Of a stretch of 52,244 nt of DNA, positions 46,328-52,244 are shown one piece after another. The DNA is taken from positions 1 to 52,244 of the forward strand of contig JADLBK010000073.1 in the NCBI GenBank assembly GCA_020847755.1. Direction: 5' to 3'. The translations under genes were made by a program, and so were the position numbers. The notes under the pieces were generated by a model, which did no database searches, was not told the DNA's origin, and worked only from the letters and a program-made list of their open reading frames with translations. How positions within the stretch are numbered: the stretch's first letter is position 1; every line of letters starts with the position of its first letter. The stretch is from Flavobacteriales bacterium (GTDB taxonomy: Bacteria; Bacteroidota; Bacteroidia; Flavobacteriales_F; PHOS-HE28).

Positions 46328-47290
46328 CTAGAGCTCCTGCACCTCCCAGGTGGGGCAGCCCACCGTGCCCAGGTCGTCATAGAAATCCAGGAAGTGCAGC
46401 TTGTGGAAAAGGCCCTGCGCGTCATGGATGATGTACACGATCCCCGGATCCACGGTGTAGGCGCCATCGTCGAACGAATAGGTCTTCCAATCGAACCCGA
46501 TGACGTCCCGCGCCGTGCTGAAGGGGTGCTGCACCGTGTCCGCCAGGCTCACTGCGGCCATGTCGGTACCGGCGATGCGCGCGACACGGACCCCGGGCGG
46601 CGTGAGCACCCCCGTGACGATGTAGGGGATGAAGGGCTCGTGGAACTGGTGCGTGTACTGCGTGAAGACCATGTCCCAGCTGCCCGTGGTCGGCTCCACG
46701 TCCACGGGTCCCGTTGCGAAGCTGAACATGCTGGAGGCGCAAGCGCCGGACTTGGCCAGCGTGTGCTCCTGGAGATCGGAGCCATCCAGCGCGGCCGTGC
46801 GGAACACATAGGCCGTGGAGGTGACCTGCAGGAGCTGCAGTTTGCGCACACCGAGGTGGGCTCCGAAGGCGTTGTAGCCCAGATCGATGAGGTGGATGTC
46901 CTGCGCCCCGCGCCAGTCCCCGATCGCCGTGCTGTCCGGATGCCCGCTGGGCGCGTCGATGCGGCGGCCCTGCGCCATCCCGGCGGTATCGGCCGGTGCG
47001 GCGATGTCGGCCGCACCGATCGACCAGGCGGTCATCAGGCGGCTGCCGTTCAGCCACACCCGCCACGCGTCCGGGCCGCTCTCGAAGGCCAGGTCCCAGG
47101 CGGTCTTCGGGTTGCTGCGCACCACGCTGCGCGATGCCACATCCACCCACAGCTGGTCCTGATACCCGCTGCCCATGCACAGTTGCACCCGCTGCGCCTC
47201 ACCGCGCGGGCGGGCGGGTACGGGCAGCTCCTCCTTGAGGCAGCCCGTGAGGAGCAGGAGGGAGAGCGGAAGCAGGGCGGTGGCACGCAT
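46328..47290 (-). CDS. HmuY family lipoprotein (hemophore-like)
   Basis: 320 residues; signal and lipobox at the start (LLPLSLLLLTGC), so surface- or periplasm-facing lipoprotein. HmuY fold hallmarks: KTAWDLAFESGPDAWRVWLN near 61-80, TGSWDMVFTQYTHQFHEPFI near 203-222 followed by PYIVTGVLTPPGVRVARIAG, and the C-terminal GIVYIIHDAQGLFHKLHFLD. In Porphyromonas HmuY takes heme from host proteins and hands it to the HmuR receptor. The gene starts 2 bp after the TonB receptor stop, the same pairing. I did not assign heme ligands. Confidence 0.87.
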   Translation of the reverse strand: MRATALLPLSLLLLTGCLKEELPVPARPRGEAQRVQLCMGSGYQDQLWVDVASRSVVRSNPKTAWDLAFESGPDAWRVWLNGSRLMTAWSIGAADIAAPADTAGMAQGRRIDAPSGHPDSTAIGDWRGAQDIHLIDLGYNAFGAHLGVRKLQLLQVTSTAYVFRTAALDGSDLQEHTLAKSGACASSMFSFATGPVDVEPTTGSWDMVFTQYTHQFHEPFIPYIVTGVLTPPGVRVARIAGTDMAAVSLADTVQHPFSTARDVIGFDWKTYSFDDGAYTVDPGIVYIIHDAQGLFHKLHFLDFYDDLGTVGCPTWEVQEL

Positions 47291-47292
47291 GA

Positions 47293-49527
47293 TCAGGATC
47301 GCTTGCGCAGTTCAACATCGAGGCGCAGGAACCAGGTGCGCCCGGTGGTCATCGGCACGGCGCTGGCCCCGGCGGAGTGCGCGCCCTCCGCCATGCTGGC
47401 CGCGAGGTTGCGCACATCGAACAGGTCCTTGCATCCCACGGTGAGGCCGAGGCGGCGGTCGAGGAACGACTTGGTGAGGGTGGCATCCGCCAGGTGGTAG
47501 GCGCTGATGGTGCCACGGGTCACGGCACCATCGGCATCCACGATGTAGTTGGCCAGTTCGCCCTGGTACTTGTAGAAGAGCGATGCGCTGAGGCCCATCC
47601 GGCGATGATCCCACATGACCGAGGCACGTGCCTCCGGACTCCACAGCGCGGCGGGTGACACGGCGTCGGTGCGTCCGGTGATCGAGCCGCCGGTGGTGAA
47701 CGCCCAGCGACCATTGTCCCAACCGGCGCCCAAGGTGCCCCCGTAGGTGCGCAGCGAACCGATGTTCACGTAGGTGTACCGTGCACCGCTCACCTGGGCG
47801 AGGCTGATGAGGTCGGCCACATCGTTGGCGAAGGCCGTGAGCTCGGCCGACCACGTGCCGCGTTCCCGCTGCGTGCGGTAGGTCAGCGCTGCGCTGCCGT
47901 GGTGCGCACGTTCCGGTCGCAGCTCGGGGTTGCCCACGATGTCGTGGTTCACGTCCACGAAGTAGAGGTGCAGTTCCTTCAGGGAAGGGGCACGGAAGCC
48001 ACGTGCATAGGCAGCGCGCACGGTGAGCGCGGGCGTCGCAGCCCAACGCAGGTTGGCCGAAGGGATCAGCGGGGCCTCATAGCGCGTATTGTAGGCATAG
48101 CGCAGCCCCGGCCGCAGTGTCAACCGGCTCCACGGACGCAACTCCATGCTGGCGAAGGCGGCCAGGTCACTGATGGCCTCCCCGTCGCCGGCCATGCGGT
48201 CCCCGCTGCCGGTCTCGTGGTTGAGGTCGGTGCCCACTTCCCAGGACAGCCATGCTCCTTCAGGGGCCGAGGCCAAGGTGGCGCGCAGGTTGGTGAGCGT
48301 GAAGCGTGAGGTGTCCTGCGTGCCGGGTGTGGTCACCAGCTGCTCACTGAGGTCGGTGAGGTCGCGGAACCAGGTGTTCCGGATGCGACGATAGCGCTGG
48401 TGCGCAAGGAGCGCATTGAGCCGACGATCCCGGTCGAGGCGTCCCTCGGCGAAGACGGCGTTGTCCAGCCGGTGTGTGAGGAACTGCTCATCGAAGGCGG
48501 TCTCGTGGTACGGCGCACGGGGCCTGCCACGGTCGGTGATGCGGTCCTGGAACACCTCGCCCTTGTAGCCAAGGTCCCAGCGATCGCCGCGCCAGCGGTG
48601 ATTGAGGCGCGCGAAGAGCTGCTCCCGCGGCTTCCACTGCTGGTGGCGCGTGCTGTCGGCCAGGCTCGGCGTGGGATCATACCAGCCGCCGGTGGCCGGG
48701 TCCCAGCCGGCAAAGGCATTGCGGCCGCCGGTGAGCACCAGGTCGTGTGCTCCCAGGCGCGTGGTGGCGGTGCCCGTGAGGTTGAGCCGGCCGATGTGCT
48801 CGGCATAGGCCGTGGCCTTGGCGCTGGCGTGGTCGTTGGAGCGTTTGCGGGTGATGAGGTTGATGGTGCCGGCCAGGGCGTTGGTGCCGTAGTTCACGCT
48901 GAGCGGGCCCTCCACCACTTCCACGCGTTCGATGCCCGTGAGGTCCAGCTGCGCGAGGTCGAGGTTGCCATCCTGTCGACCGATCACCGGCACCCCGTCC
49001 ACCAGCACCTTCACGTTCTCGCCACCGAGGCCCTGCATGCTCACCGCGGTGCCCAGGATGTTGTCCTGCCCCAGTCGTACGGTGAGCTCATTGCGCAGGG
49101 CGTCGCCGAGGTTGTTGGCGGCCATGCGATCGAGCCGGCCGCGGTCGATCACGCGCACGCGATGCACGGCGTTCTCCGCGATGTTGGCCCCATACTGACC
49201 GGTGACCACCAGTTCCGGCATGTTGATCGAGGATGGGCTGAGGCGCAGTGCATGGGGGCCTCCACCGAGCAGCGTGTCCTCGAGGACCGTGAAGCCCATC
49301 ATCCGCACGCACAGGACCACTGGGCGGCCGGGGTCCGCCGGCACGGTGAGGGCTCCATGGTCATCGGTCTGCGCGGTGAAGGCCTCACCCTCCTGCCGCC
49401 ACGTCACGCTCGCGAAGGGAACCGCGGCACCGTTCTCGGCCCTGCACTGCAAGCGGACCTGGGCGGAGAGCACGGACGGAACGATGGTGGCCGTGAAGAG
49501 GAAGAGCCGGCCGGCGGTGTATCCCAT
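47293..49527 (-). CDS. TonB-dependent receptor (HmuR-like partner of HmuY)
   Basis: 744 residues from ATG 49527 (MGYTAGRLFLFTATIVPSVL); a GTG at 49554 is an alternative. A short CarboxypepD_reg-like domain (AAVPFASVTWRQEGEAFTAQ) precedes the plug (RLDRMAANNLGDALRNELTV, AVSMQGLGGENVKVLVDGVP, ERVEVVEGPLSVNYGTNALA, GTINLITRKRS) and a 22-strand barrel (FRAPSLKELHLYFVDVNHDI, NPELRPERAHHGSAALTYRT, ending FLRLDVELRKRS). FRAPSLKELYF and NP-L-PE are typical of heme, siderophore and cobalamin receptors. Neighbouring HmuY proteins point to heme. Confidence 0.92.
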   Translation of the reverse strand: MGYTAGRLFLFTATIVPSVLSAQVRLQCRAENGAAVPFASVTWRQEGEAFTAQTDDHGALTVPADPGRPVVLCVRMMGFTVLEDTLLGGGPHALRLSPSSINMPELVVTGQYGANIAENAVHRVRVIDRGRLDRMAANNLGDALRNELTVRLGQDNILGTAVSMQGLGGENVKVLVDGVPVIGRQDGNLDLAQLDLTGIERVEVVEGPLSVNYGTNALAGTINLITRKRSNDHASAKATAYAEHIGRLNLTGTATTRLGAHDLVLTGGRNAFAGWDPATGGWYDPTPSLADSTRHQQWKPREQLFARLNHRWRGDRWDLGYKGEVFQDRITDRGRPRAPYHETAFDEQFLTHRLDNAVFAEGRLDRDRRLNALLAHQRYRRIRNTWFRDLTDLSEQLVTTPGTQDTSRFTLTNLRATLASAPEGAWLSWEVGTDLNHETGSGDRMAGDGEAISDLAAFASMELRPWSRLTLRPGLRYAYNTRYEAPLIPSANLRWAATPALTVRAAYARGFRAPSLKELHLYFVDVNHDIVGNPELRPERAHHGSAALTYRTQRERGTWSAELTAFANDVADLISLAQVSGARYTYVNIGSLRTYGGTLGAGWDNGRWAFTTGGSITGRTDAVSPAALWSPEARASVMWDHRRMGLSASLFYKYQGELANYIVDADGAVTRGTISAYHLADATLTKSFLDRRLGLTVGCKDLFDVRNLAASMAEGAHSAGASAVPMTTGRTWFLRLDVELRKRS

Positions 49528-49535
49528 CTGGAAAA

Positions 49536-49550
49536 GCTCCGCAAAGGAGC
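49536..49550 (-). promoter_or_regulatory. Hairpin masking the ribosome-binding site of the TonB receptor gene
   Basis: On the minus strand GCTCC-TTTGC-GGAGC then TTTTCCAG-ATG: the GGAG 10-13 nt before ATG 49527 is inside the stem, and the run of T resembles a short attenuator. Confidence 0.35.
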
Positions 49551-49594
49551 GCACGCGCGCACAGGCGCACGGTCACGGACACGTCAAGAGTGGC

Positions 49595-50812
49595 TCAGCG
49601 CAGCAGCACCCGGGCCACGGCCGGACCACGGTCGGTGTCCAGGCGCAGGGTGTACATCCCCGCTCCAAGGCCATCCAGGTCGAGGGTGAAGGGCGAACCG
49701 TTCACGGCATCACCGGAGCGCACCACGCGGCCCGCGGCATCCAACACCTCGAGCCCAAGGACCCGGGCGTCGCCCGCGTCGATGGTCACCAGACCGTCCA
49801 CCGAGGGGTTGGGCCACGCCCGCAACTCGGCGGGGCGGGCATCCTCCGCCAGGCCGGTGGCGCTCACCAGCTCCTGGGTGAAGTCGATGGTGCCGGAGGT
49901 GCTGCCACCAAAGCCGGTGAAGGCCAAGTGCCAGACTTGGCCACTCTGATCCTTGACGAAGTAGCTCAGGGAGTCCTCGATCACCCACTGGAAGGTCTGC
50001 ATGTCGAAGCGCTTCCAGTCGAAGCCGATGGTGTTGATGTGCGCGTTGTATGCGGCGGTGGTCCAGTCGGCGTCGGCCGGAGGCATGCCGGCCATGCGCG
50101 CGGCCTCGATGCCTTTGTTCTGCAGGACACCGGTGACCCCGTACGGCTGCGGGATGAAGGAGACGTACTTCACGAACGTGAGGTCCCAGCTGTCGTTGGC
50201 CGGTTCGCGATCGACCACGGTGTGGGCCTCCAGGTCCCAATAGGCGAAGTTCTTCGTGCTGTAGGCCGCTTTGTTGAGCTGGCCGATGAGCTCGTCGCTG
50301 CCGTCGAGGTTGGCGTGGGTGAAGGTGTAGGTGCCCGTGGCCAGGCCGTCGATGCGGAGCTTGCGCCAGGTGCCCGAGCCAAGGCGGACCAGGAAGATGG
50401 TGTCGCCGGCCACCACATGGGTGATCATGTTGTAGTTGCCCCAGCCCAGATCGAACTCATCGGCGAAGGGGCCCTGATTGAGCGCACCGAAGCTCCAGCT
50501 GGTGTCGGCGTTGTGTGCGCGCGGCCAGGTGGAGAGGCCGGTGGTGTCCACGCTGCTCCATTGAGCGATGCTGAAGGGGGTCTTCACCACTTCCACACCC
50601 GCCTTCTGGGTGTTCACCAGCACGCTGGCCGTGAAGCCCTGGATCTCGAAGGCCAGGTCCCAGTCGTTCACCGGGGCGGTGCCCACCACGCCGTTCTGCA
50701 GGCTGTACCACACCTGATCGGCATAGCCAGGAGCGATGCTCACGGTGACGGGGGTCTGGGCGCGCAGGCCGGTGATGAGGAGGATGGTCGTGAGGAGGAG
50801 CGTGGAACGCAT
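49595..50812 (-). CDS. HmuY-like domain fused to a T9SS type A sorting domain
   Basis: 405 residues; signal peptide MRSTLLLTTILLITGLRAQ. The body matches the HmuY-family lipoprotein two genes away: VNDWDLAFEIQGFTASVLVN, THANLDGSDELIGQLNKAAY, NDSWDLTFVKYVSFIPQPYG with VTGVLQNKGIEAARMAGM, and SYFVKDQSGQVWHLAFTGFG. The last 80 residues are a T9SS type A sorting domain (LRAWPNPSVDGLVTID ... GAGMYTLRLDTDRGPAVARV). So this is a T9SS-exported form instead of a lipoprotein. A promoter-like TTGCTTTG lies just upstream. It precedes the TonB receptor by 67 bp in the same direction. Confidence 0.87.
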   Translation of the reverse strand: MRSTLLLTTILLITGLRAQTPVTVSIAPGYADQVWYSLQNGVVGTAPVNDWDLAFEIQGFTASVLVNTQKAGVEVVKTPFSIAQWSSVDTTGLSTWPRAHNADTSWSFGALNQGPFADEFDLGWGNYNMITHVVAGDTIFLVRLGSGTWRKLRIDGLATGTYTFTHANLDGSDELIGQLNKAAYSTKNFAYWDLEAHTVVDREPANDSWDLTFVKYVSFIPQPYGVTGVLQNKGIEAARMAGMPPADADWTTAAYNAHINTIGFDWKRFDMQTFQWVIEDSLSYFVKDQSGQVWHLAFTGFGGSTSGTIDFTQELVSATGLAEDARPAELRAWPNPSVDGLVTIDAGDARVLGLEVLDAAGRVVRSGDAVNGSPFTLDLDGLGAGMYTLRLDTDRGPAVARVLLR

Positions 50813-50831: not shown

Positions 50832-50863
50832 CAAAGCAACTGCTGTCGCGCAGGGAGGAACAA
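50832..50863 (-). promoter_or_regulatory. Promoter of the T9SS-HmuY gene
   Basis: Minus strand: TTG (50861-50863), 21 nt, TTGCTTTG (50832-50839), with the start codon 19 nt downstream. Seven of eight bases match TAnnTTTG; the spacer is slightly long. Confidence 0.45.
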
Positions 50864-50976: not shown

Positions 50977-52244
50977 TCAGTCCACTTTCGTGAACCGCTG
51001 CGTGATGACCCCATCGCCGATCGTCAGGCGCAGGATGTACTGGCCGGGCACGAGACCGGCCACATCGACCGTGGTCCGGGTCTCACCCTTGCCGGCGTTC
51101 ACCGCCAGCGCAGGCATGGCCTCCTGGCCCAGGATGTTGATCACGCTCATCTCGATGCGGGCCTCCGCGTAGGCGGTCAGCTCGATGTTGAGCACATCGC
51201 GGGCCGGGTTCGGCCACAGGTTCAGTTCAGCCAGCGGCATGTCCTGCTCGATGGCCTTCACCAGTTCCTCGTCCAGCACGCGACCATCGCTCAGCACCAG
51301 CGACTGGGTGCCGTCCTGGTCCACACCGAACACCCCGTTGAGGATGGCGCAGAGGAACGGACCCACCACCAGGTGCGGTGCGCCCGTCACGTCAAGGCTG
51401 GCGCAGATGCTGCCACCACCCTGGATCAGCAGGCTGTTCACATCGAAGCCCGTGGTGACGCCAAGCTGAACGATGGAGAGGTCCAGCGTGGCCGGGTCGT
51501 ACACCAGGGTGTGGATGCGGTAGAGACCGAGCTGCTGCACGGTGAACACCGGCGTGGCGCTCACCTGCTGGATCGTGAGGCCGAAGCCACGCGTCAGCAC
51601 GTACAGCGTCTGATAGCCGGCCGGCACCACAGCGTCGCCACCGGGCAGGCCCACCAGCGTGGCATTTCCACCCGTGCGGCACACGACGAAGTTCTCCGGA
51701 GCGATGGTGCCGGCGCTCGCCAGGCACTCATCCGTGCAGATGGTGACATTGAACTGCGCACCCGGCACGTCCAGGCTGGCACAAATGCTGCCGCCGCCCT
51801 GCACCAACAGACCGTTCACGTCGAAGCCCGTGGTCACGCCCAGCTGCACGATGCTCAGGTCGAGCGTCGCGGGGTCGTACACCAGCGTGTGGATCGTGTA
51901 GGTGCCGTCAGCATCCACGTCGAAGCTTAGGTCCGGACCGGCGTTCACGATCGTGAGACCGGCGCCTTGCGTCAGCACGTACACCGTCTGGTAGCCGGCA
52001 GGCACATTGGCATCGCCATTGGCGGTGGCGGCCACCGTGGCCACACCATTCTCCAAGCAGACCTCCATGGACATAGCGGTCAGCGTGCCGGCGCTCGGGC
52101 TGGCCACGGTGAAGGCTGCACCCGGCACGTCCAGGCTGGCGCAGATGCTGCCGCCGCCCTGCACCAGCAGACCGTTCACATCGAAGCCCGTGGTCACGCC
52201 CAGTTGCACGATGCTCAGGTCGAGCGTCGCGGGGTCGTACACCA
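50977..52244 (-). CDS. Repeat-rich T9SS type A sorting-domain protein (N-terminus outside the window)
   Basis: At least 422 residues; the frame is open at the right edge (the GTG at 52242 is an internal Val). Three copies of a domain of about 120 residues: VYDPATLDLSIVQLGVTTGF, DVNGLLVQGGGSICASLDV, then a variable part, an AGT-(I/L) strand with a Cys, VPAGYQTVYVLTQGAGLTI, and YTIHTLVYDPATLD starting the next copy. The last copy is truncated, followed by a T9SS type A sorting domain (LNLWPNPARDVLNIELTA ... GLVPGQYILRLTIGDGVITQ). Large cell-surface protein, possibly an adhesin; no enzymatic motif. Confidence 0.88.
   Translation of the reverse strand, partial: VYDPATLDLSIVQLGVTTGFDVNGLLVQGGGSICASLDVPGAAFTVASPSAGTLTAMSMEVCLENGVATVAATANGDANVPAGYQTVYVLTQGAGLTIVNAGPDLSFDVDADGTYTIHTLVYDPATLDLSIVQLGVTTGFDVNGLLVQGGGSICASLDVPGAQFNVTICTDECLASAGTIAPENFVVCRTGGNATLVGLPGGDAVVPAGYQTLYVLTRGFGLTIQQVSATPVFTVQQLGLYRIHTLVYDPATLDLSIVQLGVTTGFDVNSLLIQGGGSICASLDVTGAPHLVVGPFLCAILNGVFGVDQDGTQSLVLSDGRVLDEELVKAIEQDMPLAELNLWPNPARDVLNIELTAYAEARIEMSVINILGQEAMPALAVNAGKGETRTTVDVAGLVPGQYILRLTIGDGVITQRFTKVD
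51412..52244 (-). repeat. Near-identical DNA blocks in the repeat-rich T9SS gene
   Basis: A block of about 100 bp encoding DLSIVQLGVTTGFDVN-(G/S)-LL recurs at about 51412, 51790 and 52150, with spacings of 378 and 360 bp. The second and third differ at only a few positions, so unequal recombination could change copy number. Confidence 0.85.

Follow-up and report, generated by a model that had tools for sequence, protein, structure and literature searches.

Introduction

In Porphyromonas gingivalis, HmuY is present in one copy, exclusively as a lipoprotein, with a single domain of ~200 aa, and it is encoded in the hmuYRSTUV operon. A related system in Flavobacterium psychrophilum comprises the heme-binding HfpY and the receptor HfpR, both of which the bacterium requires to use heme when iron is scarce (PMC9331221). 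In Riemerella anatipestifer, heme is handled by a secreted hemophore (RhuH), an outer-membrane heme binder (RhuA), and a receptor (RhuR); RhuA is unable to strip hemoglobin, and heme has been proposed to pass from RhuH to either RhuA or RhuR (PMC11967795, PMC10986502). A Flavobacterium columnare protein (C6N29_01035) that contains a HmuY domain and a Por_Secre_tail is reported to be secreted by the T9SS, and cells from which it was deleted grew without defect in the media used there, which included an iron-limited medium (PMC9618737). Genes for T9SS proteins have also been found close to hmuY: in Porphyromonas endodontalis, the gene for a T9SS-tailed protein (POREN0001_0445) lies upstream of hmuY in the hmu operon (PMC11208336), and in P. 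intermedia, a T9SS gene that adjoins hmuY is strongly iron regulated (PMC10434189).

Here, we analyze a Flavobacteriales locus in which a TonB-dependent receptor is encoded together with two HmuY-family proteins, one a lipoprotein and the other tagged for T9SS secretion. We consider it likely that the three genes form an operon for heme uptake in which the two HmuY proteins are exported by different routes. The HmuY-HmuR model would thereby gain a second HmuY, tagged for secretion, that has been kept with the lipoprotein and the receptor across many Bacteroidota families.

Results

Three Adjacent Genes Encode a Receptor and Two HmuY-Family Proteins

The window (the whole stretch of 52,244 nucleotides that was analyzed) belongs to a MAG that is 83% complete and consists of 264 contigs. 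The locus contains three minus-strand genes arranged head to tail, and all window coordinates given below refer to that strand. The first gene, T (49595..50812, 405 aa), encodes a HmuY-family protein with a T9SS type A sorting domain; after a gap of 40 bp, R (47293..49554, 753 aa) encodes a TonB-dependent receptor of the heme/HmuR-like type; and after a further 2 bp, Lp (46328..47290, 320 aa) encodes a HmuY-family lipoprotein. The initial annotation had described a heme-type locus in which one HmuY lipoprotein adjoins a TonB receptor and a second HmuY protein is fused to a T9SS type A sorting domain. Its gene coordinates (46328-50812) were exact, and the profile matches, the models, the conserved gene order, and the heme genes of related loci described below bear out this view of the locus.

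The consensus for Bacteroidota promoters is TTG followed by TAnnTTTG. In a brief look at the region upstream of T, the sole feature seen was a weak candidate for such a promoter (50832..50863, 19 bp before T), which reads TTG, 21 bp, and TTGCTTTG and has one mismatch; TTGCTTTG is the same in five of the seven aligned sequences from the window's genus. Just upstream of T, a gene at 50977-52242 that reaches the window edge encodes a T9SS-sorted protein that contains several nearly identical repeats (GVTTGFDVN...LLVQGGGSICASLDV).

T and Lp Share the HmuY Fold but Carry Different Export Signals

T scored above the cut-offs of the HmuY profile PF14064 (28.9 bits; Pfam gathering cut-off 27) and of the sorting-domain profiles PF18962 (27.5 bits; cut-off 27) and TIGR04183 (27.1 bits; cut-off 23), and Lp scored 39.5 bits against PF14064; several of these scores are marginal on their own and are supported by the orthologs and the structural models. 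A PF14064 search of the window's genome returned Lp only, and because this search missed T, the absence of a profile match at its sensitivity means little.

Structure prediction, which the initial annotation had suggested for both proteins, placed them in the HmuY fold. The AF2 model of T (mean pLDDT 91.7, from 51 orthologs) aligned with HmuY (3h8t) with a Z score of 13.7 (2.9 Å over 129 residues), and that of Lp (mean pLDDT 92.7, from 48 orthologs) aligned with a Z score of 16.0 (2.4 Å over 137 residues). HmuY proteins were the top solved-structure matches for both models. The first outcome that the initial annotation had named as refuting it, a T9SS protein without this fold, thus did not occur.

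The HmuY part of each protein is about 290 aa long and contains an internal repeat, and so it is not the textbook single domain of ~200 aa. When the N-terminal and C-terminal halves of T were compared as profiles, hhalign gave a probability of 96% (E 3e-9), against 9.1% or less for reversed-profile and unrelated (CTD) controls; the halves of Lp alone match weakly (44%), and T and Lp align over the whole length of Lp. The structure alignments of T with HmuY proteins extend over its residues 14-322, within which only 128-140 residues are paired.

The two proteins differ at their termini. T lacks a lipoprotein signal, which is a trait of the characterized HmuY members and not a criterion of the PF14064 family, and has instead a predicted signal peptide of the signal peptidase I type (residues 1-18, LRA|Q, 50759..50812), in which A18-Q19 is almost invariant among 51 orthologs, and a C-terminal T9SS sorting domain (about residues 325-405, 49598..49840). 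The fold of this tail matched the C-terminal domain of a T9SS cargo protein (8glk_D) with a Z score of 11.7 (1.7 Å over 74 residues), in agreement with the profiles, and the window's genome encodes the T9SS translocon SprA (2499.7 bits). In Lp, the lipobox LTGC is followed by CLKEE (47228..47251), which fits the lipoprotein surface-export signal C-X-K-(D/E)2-X (PMC5080379). The lipobox cysteine, Cys17, is kept in all 48 aligned Lp orthologs, and 39 of the 48 fit C-x-[KR]-[DE]-[DE].

Candidate heme ligands were sought among conserved columns. T orthologs share a motif specific to T, GWGNYNMITH (residues 123-132, 50417..50446), and its Tyr127 and His132 are candidate ligands: Y127, like G228, is found in 79/79 T sequences and H132 in 74/79. 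His132 is the only His, Met, or Cys column conserved in at least 50% of the 79 sequences, which keep one His and show no conserved His/His or Met/Met pair of the kind found in characterized HmuY proteins. The corresponding candidate in Lp is Met86 (47033..47035), a methionine in 65 of 75 orthologs; apart from Met1 and the lipobox Cys, no other His, Met, or Cys column reaches 50% in that set.

R matched PF00593 (105.7 bits) and the Plug profile (70.2 bits). Its best NCBIfam profile was TonB-hemin (TIGR01785), with 122.1 bits against a cut-off of 316.85, and it also matched the B12 receptor profile TIGR01779 below cut-off (116.5 bits). The FRAP and NPEL boxes and the His537 between them (47920..47997) are present, and H537 is kept in 55/55 orthologs.

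The Three Genes Are Kept Together across Bacteroidota

When 58 relatives were searched, T was whole in 31 of the 35 genomes from the window's genus and was present as contig-end fragments in two more (G014 and G034); the other two (G007 and G015) gave no match to T. A genome collection supplied 28 further loci, and additional loci came from phylum and family samples. The survey of T9SS-HmuY fusions proposed in the initial annotation thus grew to 79 distinct T genes in Bacteroidota, and for 67 of these, R and Lp are both encoded in the stretch examined. The order is T>R>Lp in 49 of the trios and R>Lp>T in 15, and in three, T is divergent from R>Lp. Among the bacteria that carry R-Lp-T is the culturable Chishuiella changwenlii DSM 27989 (L052). 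Five of the other 12 T genes lie at contig ends, and seven have one or neither partner: R only (L160, L161, and L168), Lp only (L163), or neither nearby (L158, L159, and L162). R and Lp without T were found at loci L169-L173. In the phylum sample, 34/296 genomes gave a match to the Lp profile, and 12 of those 34 encode a full-length T.

The lone T genes of L158 and L159, which have no receptor or lipoprotein gene near them, each adjoin a gene for a protein of ~350-360 aa. At two other loci (L166:9225-10007 and L167:9778-10584), a small protein of 260-268 aa is encoded between R and T and divergently from R; the one from L166 carries a T9SS tail, outside of which it has no solved relative.

A quick, unrooted tree was built from T (79 sequences) and Lp (75 sequences) with the sorting domain removed; it has some long branches, and a single branch (SH-aLRT 99) divides the T group from the Lp group. 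When the T and Lp labels were shuffled, ~51 changes were required on average and never as few as 1. Because one well-supported branch parts the two proteins even with the tail removed, the pair looks ancient, and the split would fit a single old duplication.

Related Loci Contain Heme Transport and Heme-Handling Genes

Genes for a periplasmic binding protein, a FecCD permease, an ATPase, and HemS accompany T and R at loci L054, L069, L077, L090, L160, L166, and L167. They lie between T and R in two congeners of the window's organism (L069 and L077) and also in L090 and L054, between R and T in L160, and behind Lp in L166 and L167. The window's own MAG, which is 83% complete, yielded no HemS.

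A DUF6607 gene adjoins T in 14 loci, and the DUF6607 protein of an R-Lp locus (L170, 4327-5229) matched the hemophore RhuH (8XJC) with an E value of 2.7e-94. PF20311 (DUF6607) is labeled as being of "unknown function," yet a member matches this solved hemophore. A PF20311 search of 56 relatives, the window's genome among them, gave no match, and none of its controls matched either. Eight Flavobacteriaceae loci (L185-L187 and L189-L193) encode three putative heme collectors (a DUF6607/RhuH protein, T, and Lp) beside one receptor. Since related loci also encode a heme ABC transporter with HemS, or a RhuH homolog, the ligand of the system is likely to be heme.

At two loci, a CbiX-type chelatase gene lies between T and R (L056:3568-5890 and L089:2702-4230), and in L056, it is followed by a gene for an FMN-binding membrane protein. 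The chelatase at this position possibly serves to remove iron from heme.

Most Genomes of the Window's Genus Appear to Lack Heme Synthesis Genes

Ferrochelatase was found in only 3/35 genomes of the genus (G007, G015, and G021), and ALAD in only 2/34 (G015 and G021). The sole members without a T match, G007 and G015, both have ferrochelatase (Fisher p 0.005), in a set of genomes that are not independent, as they share ancestry; T, HemS, and ferrochelatase are all present in G021. Most of the genus is thus likely to be auxotrophic for heme, a reading that is weakened by this shared ancestry and by the gaps in draft genomes, since genes missing from MAGs can be gaps. Across families, a hand tally showed a weaker trend (p 0.013). 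The trend was absent in Flavobacteriaceae, where ferrochelatase was kept in 10/10 of the T-bearing genomes tested, so that carriage of T does not generally imply heme auxotrophy.

Since genes for heme synthesis are missing from the window's genus, the T-R-Lp system there probably meets a need for heme itself, and relatives that encode HemS probably use it as a source of iron as well. These results suggest that an environmental genus of Flavobacteriales relies on external heme, and the operon would matter most for relatives that are apparently unable to make heme.

Discussion

The architecture of the locus suggests how heme might be passed inward. After cleavage of its signal peptide, T would be exported by the T9SS and then either released or anchored to glycan on the surface, where it would act as a heme collector with the HmuY fold. 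Lp would sit next to R on the external side of the outer membrane and would take heme over for the receptor, which would move it across the outer membrane with energy from TonB. The most likely route of heme would then run from the environment to T, from T to Lp, and from Lp to R, an order of transfer that we regard as plausible, if a little short of probable.

T and Lp may instead act in parallel, each binding heme and each delivering it directly to R, with T acting at a distance and Lp serving as a local lid or docking partner. Loci L160 and L161, in which T and R but no Lp were detected, suggest that T may work without Lp, and L169-L173 show Lp with R but without T. In contrast, T and Lp adjoin each other without R in L163, and the two usually occur together, both partners being present for 67/79 T genes. 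We consider this arrangement without a relay possible but doubtful.

T might also be a surface heme store, an adhesin for heme proteins, or a detoxifying sponge that does not feed the receptor. In favor of such a role, T9SS type A cargo can remain on the cell surface. Loss of the T9SS-secreted HmuY of F. columnare without a growth defect in iron-limited medium points in the same direction (PMC9618737). However, T is tightly linked to the receptor and to heme-import genes, and it occurs in most genomes of a genus without ferrochelatase, which points to uptake and makes a storage, adhesin, or sponge function distinctly unlikely.

Transport of a tetrapyrrole other than heme, such as protoporphyrin IX or cobalamin, would be consistent with the match of R to the B12 receptor profile (below its cut-off), with the CbiX-type chelatase genes of two loci, and with the preference of Bacteroides fragilis HmuY-2 for protoporphyrin (PMC12106395). 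The HemS and RhuH-type neighbors, the invariant histidine of the receptor, and the loss from the genus of both ferrochelatase and ALAD argue against such a ligand, which we judge to be very unlikely. That T is a degenerate passenger copy without a pocket is exceedingly improbable: although its HmuY score is below that of Lp, many of its columns are almost unchanged in 79 sequences, it is whole or present at contig ends in nearly all genomes of the genus, and this column conservation, with the loci that retain both partners, rules out a passenger gene.

Returning to transfer from T through Lp to R, the conserved residues allow a more detailed version of this route, which as a whole is unlikely to be correct in every part. 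An ancient duplication of HmuY would have given rise to a two-stage relay made up of a T9SS-secreted collector, whose single-His site would suit extracellular ferric heme, and a lipoprotein that uses a Met at the cell surface next to the receptor. Heme would pass down a ladder of redox potential or affinity into R, and the relay would have become the heme supply for a lineage that has lost heme synthesis. The two candidate ligand residues make a heme relay directly testable. More broadly, the locus assigns a likely role in heme acquisition to a set of proteins annotated as "T9SS type A sorting domain" proteins.

The initial annotation had proposed that a T9SS-delivered collector and a lipoprotein acceptor feeding one receptor would be a relay beyond the textbook HmuY-HmuR pair. 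As a claim of novelty this was overstated, as a T9SS-secreted HmuY has already been reported from F. columnare (PMC9618737), and a set of secreted collector, membrane binder, and receptor has been proposed within Flavobacteriales for RhuH-RhuA-RhuR (PMC11967795). The part that stands is the linked T9SS/lipoprotein HmuY pair, on which we found no paper in the open-access literature; new here are this pair, its age, the internal repeat of its members, and its link to heme auxotrophy.

The described systems each share some features with the locus. The F. columnare HmuY resembles T in its described domains, and the accessible part of its report describes no paired lipoprotein HmuY or neighboring receptor (PMC9618737). 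POREN0001_0445 resembles T in its T9SS tail and its place in the operon; it has been described only as β-barrel-like, and its homologs as orphan genes. HfpR-HfpY likewise pairs a receptor with a HmuY-family protein, but it has one such protein and no described T9SS partner (PMC9331221). RhuH-RhuR-RhuA offers a secreted collector, an outer-membrane heme binder, and a TonB receptor in one locus, and L170, in which the DUF6607 gene is divergent from R-Lp, has the same layout as the Riemerella locus; by gene position, RhuA would correspond to Lp. RhuH itself is a DUF6607 protein (8XJC) that is reported to be structurally distinct from HmuY and to occur in outer membrane vesicles in Riemerella, whereas the secreted collector here would be a HmuY paralog with a T9SS tag. 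With P. gingivalis HmuY-HmuR, the locus shares the HmuY fold (Z scores of 16.0 for Lp and 13.7 for T) and a lipoprotein HmuY that adjoins a TonB receptor, and it differs in having two paralogs with internally repeated HmuY regions of ~290 aa, one of which is T9SS tagged.
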